From Streptomyces sp. RKAG290 (GTDB lineage: Bacteria; Actinomycetota; Actinomycetes; Streptomycetales; Streptomycetaceae), in assembly GCF_023701695.1 (NCBI RefSeq), contig NZ_JAJOZC010000001.1, positions 3,347,894-3,411,893 on the forward strand: DNA of 64,000 nt, in the 5' to 3' direction. The translations under genes and the position numbers were made by a program. The first letter of the stretch is position 1. The number at the start of each line of letters is the position of its first letter. The notes beneath the pieces are model-generated. The model ran no database searches and was not told where the DNA came from. It was given only the letters and a program-made list of their open reading frames with translations. Of this stretch, positions 58,796 through 62,775 are shown piece by piece.

Positions 58796-59093
58796 TTATC
58801 CACAGGCGCACGTCTCGACCTGGGGACAAGTCGACACCACAACACGACATAGTCGACAAATCTCCTCAGTCCGCCCAGACCCATCCACAGGCCTGCAGGA
58901 CCCCAGGTGTCACCTCAATTCCGTTGATCAACTCCTTAGGACGAGGAATTCCCACCCGAACGAGCGTGTGAGGCGGGTTTGAAGTGCGATTCCACAAGCC
59001 GCGATGCGGCTTTCGGAATGATCTCTTCCGTGTCCACAGACTTTCCTCACAGCCTGTGGATAACTTTTACGCACCACCCCACCCTGTGGACAA
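58796..59093. promoter_or_regulatory. Cluster of DnaA boxes between pheA and serS
   Basis: TTATCCACA forward at 58796-58804; the same reversed (TGTGGATAA) at 59055-59063; TTGTCCACA reversed at 59085-59093, the exact Streptomyces consensus; and GTGTCCACA at 59030-59038 with one mismatch. dnaA and dnaN are not here, so this is not oriC by context. It may titrate DnaA or mark a DnaA-regulated promoter for serS. Confidence 0.7.
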
Positions 59094-61806: not shown

Positions 61807-62502
61807 TCAGCGGTTCCTGTTGCGGCGGCTCAGGTCCTTCAGGTTGCGTGCCAGCTCGTCCATCCGTCCGTCGAGCCGGACGAGGTCCTCGGACACCCCG
61901 CCCAGTCGCACGCTCATGGCACCGATCACCTGGTGCGTGACCTCCAGCCTCCGGTCGAGGCTGTCGAGGCGGAGCGACATCCGGTTGAGGACCGGCCCCA
62001 GCTCCTGCAGGGCGGTGCCCACTCCGGCCAGGCAGCTTTCGACCCGGGTCACGCGGTGTTCGAGCGAGGCGTACCCCGCCCGCAGGTCCTGCTCGGCGTC
62101 GAGGAGATACGTACGGACGCAGCGCGCGATGTCGCTGTCGCGAAGAAGCATCGCGACGTTGAGGACGGTCCTGCGGGTGTAGAGGGTGAGCTGCGCGTGA
62201 GCCTGTGGATAACTTTCACCCTGCCCGCCGTCTAATAGGGACACCATGTCCCTATTAAAGACACGCAGGTCAGAGCCACGCAGCAGCCTGAGCCCGTTCT
62301 CCTCCATCTCTGCTCGGTGGCGCTGGGTCACCTTTTTGACGACCTCTGTGGATACTTCGAAGTACCGGGCCACGTCCTCGGTGCGAACGTGAACCCCGTC
62401 GGGGAGCATGACAAGGCTCTTCACCTTGTCGAGGGCGTCGACGCGCCCCATCTGTTCGACGCGCAGGGTGCGCGATTCGAGCAGGGCGACTTCCGTGAGC
62501 AT
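61807..62502 (-). CDS. Antirepressor/DNA-binding-like protein with C-terminal coiled coil
   Basis: 231 aa from ATG 62502 (MLTEVALLESRTLRVEQMGR). Residues about 15-100 look like a phage-antirepressor or Rha-like winged-helix domain: MLPDGVHVRTEDVARYFEVS, TEVVKKVTQRHRAEMEENGL, RRTVLNVAMLLRDSDIARCV, RTYLLDAEQDLRAG. A long heptad-rich coiled coil (about 140-220) follows, ending RNLKDLSRRNRNR. It has a TTA (Leu) codon at 62235-62233, so its translation may need the bldA tRNA. The TTA sits in a perfect 25-bp DNA palindrome within the gene. No phage genes are near. Function unknown. Confidence 0.7.
   Translation of the reverse strand: MLTEVALLESRTLRVEQMGRVDALDKVKSLVMLPDGVHVRTEDVARYFEVSTEVVKKVTQRHRAEMEENGLRLLRGSDLRVFNRDMVSLLDGGQGESYPQAHAQLTLYTRRTVLNVAMLLRDSDIARCVRTYLLDAEQDLRAGYASLEHRVTRVESCLAGVGTALQELGPVLNRMSLRLDSLDRRLEVTHQVIGAMSVRLGGVSEDLVRLDGRMDELARNLKDLSRRNRNR
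62233..62257. promoter_or_regulatory. 25-bp intragenic palindrome
   Basis: TAATAGGGACA (62233-62243) and TGTCCCTATTA (62247-62257) are perfect 11-bp arms around CCA. It lies within codons for about residues 82-90 of the DNA-binding-like gene. A TTATCCACA box lies 20 bases away (62204-62212). Confidence 0.75.
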
Positions 62503-62736: not shown

Positions 62737-62775
62737 ATGCGACAACCCCCGCCCGATGGGCAGGGGTTGTCGCAT
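62737..62775 (-). terminator. Terminator of the ABC exporter operon
   Basis: Perfect 13-bp arms (62737-62749 with 62763-62775; ATGCGACAACCCC on the + strand) with a loop that holds a second small stem (GCCC/GGGC). It lies 18 bases beyond the permease stop on the minus strand. Confidence 0.85.

Follow-up and report, generated by a model that had tools for sequence, protein, structure and literature searches.

The gene and its internal palindrome

The window analysed in this study, a stretch of 64,000 nucleotides from the genome of Streptomyces sp. RKAG290, contains near one end a gene for a helix-turn-helix (HTH) protein, which lies 79 kb from dnaA and whose start codon is conserved in the alignment of its homologues. 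Within the coding region of this minus-strand gene stands a 25-bp palindrome, TAATAGGGACA-CCA-TGTCCCTATTA, with perfect 11-bp arms and a spacer of 3 nt (Table 1). A preliminary description of this DNA had pointed to a perfect palindrome with an in-frame CTA-TTA, and reading the codons across it in the minus-strand frame (TTT AAT AGG GAC ATG GTG TCC CTA TTA) confirmed both.

Table 1. Features of the locus, in window coordinates
Feature	Position	Strand	Remarks
Host gene, 231 codons and stop	61807..62502	-	HTH domain, short middle domain, long coiled coil
Predicted recognition helix, codons 52-61	62320..62349	-	Helix limits from the AlphaFold model; covariation with the site
Candidate embedded palindromic operator	62233..62257	-	Dyad at third base of codon 86; sense strand TAATAGGGACA-TGG-TGTCCCTATTA
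DnaA-box 9-mer TTATCCACA, codons 97-100 (SYPQ)	62204..62212	-	20 nt past the palindrome
Second DnaA-box-like 9-mer GTATCCACA, codons 50-52	62347..62355	-	One mismatch; identical in 71 of 115 g1 genes
DnaA-box cluster between pheA and serS	58796..59093	.	About 3 kb from the gene; TTATCCACA at 58796(+) and 59055(-), TTGTCCACA at 59085(-), CCATCCACA at 58881(+), GTGTCCACA at 59030(+), TTGTCCCCA at 58821(-)

The window holds six palindromes whose arms reach at least 11 and whose spacers measure 0-5, against a mean of 0.25 and a maximum of 1 in 20 first-order Markov resamples of the window. The palindrome in this gene has 15 A/T letters, a number reached in none of the 20 resamples, and the A/T letters of the remaining five number 6-8, with spacers of 4-5. 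In the 8.08-Mb genome, the exact 25-mer pattern is found a single time. An intrinsic terminator was rejected on inspection by eye alone, no T run following the stem. A separate hairpin lies at 62737-62775, upstream of the host gene.

Concerning the protein, the AlphaFold model has helices at residues 41-48, 52-61 and 124-230 and a strand at 72-75, with a pLDDT of about 84 at helix 52-61, a low-confidence linker at 93-98 and a whole-model pTM of 0.44. No confident family was found for it in Pfam, PHROG or NCBIfam, the best weak matches being PHROG 2286 (unknown function, E 2.6e-6) and PHROG 63 (E 3.4e-4); the Pfam matches up to E 1 included neither the XRE family nor Mrr, and Foldseek gave no match at E <=0.001. 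The structure neighbours of the modelled HTH in the VIA list were RacA (Z 7.4 over 55 residues, rmsd 1.8), the partition protein 3ez9 (Z 6.8 over 61 residues, rmsd 2.7) and MerR-like and Xis chains, every match being below Z 8, which may reflect a common arrangement.

Conservation of the palindrome and its correspondence with the predicted recognition helix

Relatives of the gene are patchily distributed. Genus searches matched 79 of 199 genomes and, in a second set, 144 of 392, and a search of the phylum matched 9 of 396, six of them in the same genus; outside the genus, one match was good (E 2e-29) and two were marginal. The family set was drawn from both genus searches, a few loci of the phylum search and 38 named loci, and the counts below cover the fetched loci, which are many, not all, of the matches listed. 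It gave 204 profile hits, of which 9 incomplete ones were set aside to leave 195, and 162 of these are distinct.

A palindrome with at least 8 of 10 pairs is found at this position of the gene in 158 of the 162 distinct genes, compared with 327 of 4043 control windows drawn in and around the same genes. A chance palindrome was rejected on this count together with the resamples, which never matched the A/T-rich 25-mer. Two geometries are distinguished: in type g1 (n=115) the dyad falls on the third base of codon 86, and in type g2 (n=47; 48 rows before re-centring) on the same base of codon 82, so that the g2 palindrome is centred 12 nt upstream, on the FK codons, in genes that have DHR in place of RHR. 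One gene, L198, fits neither centre well and has a palindrome with 12-bp arms nearby; it was kept among the 115 g1 rows, scored as a miss in the code table and omitted from the g1 column scan, which hence has 114 rows. Both types carry a variable 4-mer at +4 to +7 from the dyad, and at the centre g1 sites read CANNNTG, g2 sites CTTNAAG.

Pairing is complete, at 11 pairs, in 19 of 30 genus orthologues (counting the window's own); in 10 a single pair is non-Watson-Crick, and in one two pairs are. The loss of the palindrome through synonymous changes in close relatives, which the preliminary description had named as refuting its proposal, was thus not seen in these 30 genes. Changes are matched on both arms: GGGACA becomes GCGACA together with CCC to CGC opposite, and this paired change alters the encoded residues (R to S, N to H and L to W). 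More distant relatives have different letters, as in CCATAGGTCCA-CAA-TGGACCTATGG and TGAAAGGTCCA-ACA-TGGACCTTTCA. At its column in the palindrome, CTA provides 65 of 90 Leu codons, against a background use of about 1%.

The TTA codon itself is not part of this conservation. The preliminary description had suggested a translation checkpoint through the bldA tRNA; at this position, TTG stands in the next four relatives and TGG in most others, and any TTA codon occurs in only 3 of the 162 distinct genes, a count limited to the DNA fetched, in which some long relatives end at the edge of their locus. The bldA idea was rejected on these grounds, and the TTA in the window's gene comes with the outermost palindrome pair.

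The letters of the site correspond to those of the recognition helix. When the residues at positions 56 and 57 are taken together, the 4-mer in at least one half of the site is TCCC for KK (27/27), TCGC for RR (32/32) and TCAC for RQ (29/29), and other classes behave likewise, with TCTC for NR (3/3), ACCA for HS (3/3), TCGG for EK (3/3) and CAAC for RA (15/16). The KS class has GACC in at least one half in both geometries (8/8 in g1 and 7/7 in g2). The correspondence is looser in RS, with GAGC in a half in 9 of 13, and in ES, whose rows divide into GAGG and AGGG. The bases nearest the dyad vary with residue 61: TG accompanies R in 111 of 115 genes, and AAG accompanies D in 47 of 47. In the g1 scan, which took in all variable columns, columns 57, 60 and 56 carried the most information on the 4-mer (0.835, 0.761 and 0.655, ranks 1-3), the best other column outside the palindrome reaching 0.522; in the g2 scan (47 rows), column 84, whose codon is inside the palindrome, came first, 56 and 60 ranked second and third, and 57 was sixth. 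In the window's protein, K56, K57, Q60 and R61 would correspond to the core of the site.

Such a correspondence was also followed on trees. On a tree built from the C-terminal part alone, 62 changes of the helix and 64 of the site are required, and where branches are supported the site was seen to follow the helix in 9.4/10 for KK, 7.5/8 for RR, 4/4 for RQ and 3.4/5 for KS, with the opposite seen in none. The tree built from N-terminal DNA (codons 1-52 and 64-79), a stricter control for helix and site moving as one block, gave fewer supported pairs, 2.7/3 for KK, 0.8/1 for RR, 4/4 for RQ, 2.5/4 for KS, 0.7/3 for RS and 3/4 for RA and no opposite pairs, with no class reaching significance alone. 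When the same residue pair recurs in genes less than 70% identical outside the helix, the 4-mer was predicted in 92 of 118 genes (1.8 expected from other classes; 44 of 162 not testable); below 60% identity it was predicted in 78 of 93 (1.5 expected; 69 not testable) and below 50% in 10 of 12 (0 expected; 150 not testable). Among these sequence comparisons, reuse in unrelated backgrounds is better evidence than the trees against mere co-movement of neighbours.

Homologues are also found in phages. A tblastn search returned 75 phage records, the first match (E 6e-26) being annotated as the anti-repressor Ant, and a scan of viral contigs gave 55 loci. Scoring was possible for 50 distinct viral sequences, and 42 of them form at least 8 of 10 pairs at the same position, against 64 of 1250 control windows; among three named phages, one has an 8-bp palindrome, one a 6-bp palindrome and one none. 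In the 50 phage rows, scored by eye, 10 of the 15 with the pairs KK, RQ, KS, RS, RA, HS or RK have the exact Streptomyces 4-mer in one half or both. Of the 11 ES rows, 1 matches the Streptomyces code, 10 carry either ACGG or ACAG in a half, and all end in G; the other 24 rows have helix pairs that lack a Streptomyces class. The likeness to Ant-type anti-repressors (PHROG 63; Gordonia, Mycobacterium, Paenibacillus and Bacillus phages) covers the HTH and middle domain, the 20 best records being about 40-44% identical between residues 1 and 150. In two of three annotated records, though not in the third, the phage copies are next to an immunity repressor or XRE/HTH genes, whereas the Streptomyces copies are chromosomal, without a known partner repressor at their locus, and, in g1, have a DnaA box.

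Further copies of the site are few. A search of the RKAG290 genome for ATAGGGACA-N3-TGTCCCTAT with up to 3 mismatches returned the gene and one further place at 3 mismatches. The commonest KK/RR site form, searched in 61 genomes of the genus with one mismatch, was matched in nine genomes, once in each, eight of the matches being in the gene and the ninth, with one mismatch, in a genome lacking the gene. A relative is present in 25 of the 61 genomes, and in 17 of those 25 the site has a form outside this pattern, some also of class KK. For the commonest form, therefore, the only full site found for the predicted binding protein is in its own gene. A global regulator with many sites is unsupported for this form only, at no more than one site per genome in the 61 genomes.

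DnaA boxes and the chromosomal setting

The g1 genes carry a further element downstream of the palindrome. The sequence YY(A/C/G)TCCACA follows it in 110 of 115 g1 genes (104 of them reading TTATCCACA), against 3 of 1150 control windows, at a distance of 8-29 nt in the family. The codons of this box (AGT, TAT and CCA) are rare, yet nearly fixed, and a change of residue mostly preserves the box, Y to C giving TTGTCCACA and Y to H giving TCATCCACA; an exception is the g1 gene L048, in which Y to C reads TTGCCCACA and fits no box. The 9-mers are candidate DnaA boxes, named for their match, within two mismatches, to TTATCCACA or the actinomycete TT(G/C)TCCACA. The perfect box is TTATCCACA in E. 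coli and B. subtilis and TTGTCCACA in S. coelicolor, and a single box is reported to be bound weakly by S. coelicolor DnaA, according to the parts of PMC4285127 considered here. The sequence GTTATCCACA occurs 17 times in the RKAG290 genome (4 forward and 13 reverse), compared with one occurrence of the reversed control, and is often extended to GTTATCCACAGG. Near these 17 places, palindromes of at least 7 bp were found, besides this gene, at one, where the box stands with its own inverted copy.

The cluster of boxes between pheA and serS is possibly a known origin-proximal DnaA-box cluster of Streptomyces; a published cluster near oriC is reportedly called 'D78'. Joint action of the window's cluster with the putative operator is hypothetical. 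The passages of PMC3411110 and PMC13121528 considered here do not locate a DnaA-box cluster. Among 19 neighbourhoods, 10 are at pheA-serS-HAD and the other 9 share a different neighbourhood. The latter is presumably the pknB-rodA-pstP-fha operon (the pknB/sortase region), also near oriC. Two long relatives that were scanned, L045 and L049, have the same HTH and putative operator with a C-terminal Mrr_cat domain (E 2e-21 and 6.8e-20, respectively), and L049 is located at this second chromosomal home.

Based on this setting, the palindrome could be part of an origin-proximal nucleoprotein site, at which the protein and DnaA would sit side by side and influence replication, titrate DnaA or tether the origin; the operator would then lie in the gene as origins do in some plasmid and phage initiator genes, and self-control would be secondary. 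We regard this as unlikely, in spite of the box kept past the palindrome mostly regardless of residue change, the distance from dnaA, the ten neighbourhoods at pheA-serS, the DnaA-box cluster between pheA and serS in the window, and an HTH resembling RacA and the partition protein 3ez9. The g2 genes keep the putative operator, and a DnaA box is found in 1 of 47 of them (control 17/470). The box is lost in L048, 248 of 392 genus genomes have no match, a single box is reportedly bound only weakly by S. coelicolor DnaA, and structural similarities below Z 8 may come from a common arrangement.

The systems that this reading recalls differ in several respects. RepA_N, lambda O and RepC are plasmid or phage initiators with the origin inside the gene, and the likeness consists of a binding site of the protein's own, here a predicted one, within the coding sequence, with a DnaA box near some; the present case has one palindrome on the chromosome, with no iterons seen. 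RacA of Bacillus likewise has an HTH followed by a coiled coil, and binds near the origin at many sites, whereas few sites per genome, and no second copy of the commonest site form, were found here.

Readings of the conserved site

A hairpin in the mRNA, acting in translational or stability control, was initially favoured for the lean towards G.U on the sense strand, where mispairs in pairs 1-9 are G.T in 11 cases and A.C in 4, and it would also account for the matched changes in the arms. It was dropped once the core letters were found to follow the recognition helix, a tracking that a hairpin would not require. Moreover, pair 5 of 70 distinct sites occurs as four pair types with no wobble (G-C 25, C-G 28, T-A 15, A-T 2, unpaired 0), and the two central pairs are almost invariant (A-T 64/70 and C-G 70/70). 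We therefore consider an RNA hairpin highly improbable. Scarcely credible is a nuclease target, in which the site would direct the nuclease of Mrr-fused relatives and the embedded copy would mark self or drive allele replacement, since the putative operator is kept though the window's protein has no Mrr match and the serS-locus proteins aligned end after the coiled coil, the Mrr_cat domains of L045 and L049 and the differing codes of co-resident copies (4/4 genome pairs looked at) notwithstanding.

In our view, the palindrome probably serves as cognate operator for the product of its own gene, with an autorepressing block to elongation as its most likely use. Self-binding is the sole reading found that would account at once for the conservation of the dyad, the matched changes in both arms and the helix code, and that the encoded protein binds the palindrome is very likely on these grounds. 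The proposal of the preliminary description that the palindrome may be the protein's own binding site thus received strong support at the sequence level, from the matched arm changes and the covariation of the core with residues 56, 57 and 60; the autoregulation coupled to it is something that we infer.

The proposed mechanism is as follows. Because of the dyad symmetry, the protein would act as a dimer that sets its two recognition helices on both half-sites, residues 56, 57 and 60 reading the 4 bp at +4 to +7 and residue 61 going with the bases nearest the dyad. The operator would occupy codons 82-90, where the protein tolerates change, and helix and operator could therefore change and travel together. 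The protein bound about 250 bp into its own ORF would block the elongating RNA polymerase, so that the gene would limit its own expression without a site at the promoter. Such autorepression by roadblock is the likeliest use, and we hold it slightly more probable than its absence. DnaA on the adjacent box may strengthen the block or tie it to replication; this speculative role for DnaA is possible, if somewhat doubtful. In the 250 nt upstream, half-sites of the gene's own class are also in excess (23 of 105, compared with 10.6 on average for half-sites of other classes), and therefore promoter sites may contribute as well.

The closest known system is C.Kpn2I, which attaches within its own ORF and acts there as a roadblock to elongating RNA polymerase, a loop that its authors consider suited to horizontal transfer (the parts of PMC6237814 considered here). 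C.Kpn2I and the C.Kpn2I-like XRE regulators resemble the present case in being HTH regulators with a site, here predicted, inside their own coding sequence. As described there, C.Kpn2I is a restriction-modification (R-M) controller closest to XRE, with its motif at or near the ORF start and one motif common to its relatives, whereas the protein here is another HTH protein with a site about 250 bp into the gene, many specificities that track the helix and, in g1, a DnaA box. No R-M partner was noticed in the window around the gene. The transfer argument fits here because the gene is patchy (144/392 genomes) and has phage relatives, and the change of the site letters in step with the recognition helix suggests a compact, self-contained control loop that would travel with the gene.

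In the literature covered, from which subscription papers were mostly outside the scope, embedded sites of this Streptomyces and phage HTH family were not found described, and C.Kpn2I was the sole close precedent. Intragenic self-sites are already known; what would be new is an embedded operator that is family-wide and whose letters the helix of the encoded protein predicts, and the link of this operator with a DnaA box near oriC. As a broader picture, which in its entirety we hold to be rather unlikely, the genes would form a large phage and Streptomyces family, each carrying its own operator after the DNA-reading domain in a readable code selected for mutual orthogonality of coexisting copies, and in Streptomyces domesticated near oriC, where coupling to DnaA would make an origin-linked self-limiting switch.

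If binding is confirmed, each member would state its target in its own gene, and hundreds of protein-operator pairs would be readable without assays, providing a ready dataset for HTH recognition codes and orthogonal repressors. The loop, if true, would be an autoregulatory design independent of the promoter that stays intact through horizontal transfer, and a family-wide one rather than a curiosity of one R-M system. For Streptomyces, it would add near oriC a conserved element that bears a DnaA box and whose part in controlling replication is directly testable.

Several minor observations concern the family more generally. In four two-copy genomes, the copies differ in helix/operator class in 4/4 of the pairs looked at. 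The frame is broken in four copies, in all of them between alignment columns 59 and 72, that is, after the recognition helix and before the palindrome, which is still visible in at least two of them. Codon 77 (window 62272-62274) ends in T in at least 100 of 114 g1 genes irrespective of the amino acid (TCT, GCT, CCT or GAT), a further nucleotide-level constraint upstream of the palindrome. In g2 genes, AGT accounts for 29 of 30 Ser codons at column 88, and GCA CGT at columns 125-126 is almost invariant (46 of 48 genes each); these fixed codons are candidates for other DNA-level elements. One g2 gene, L203, has a perfect palindrome of 43 bp with 21-bp arms inside the coding region.
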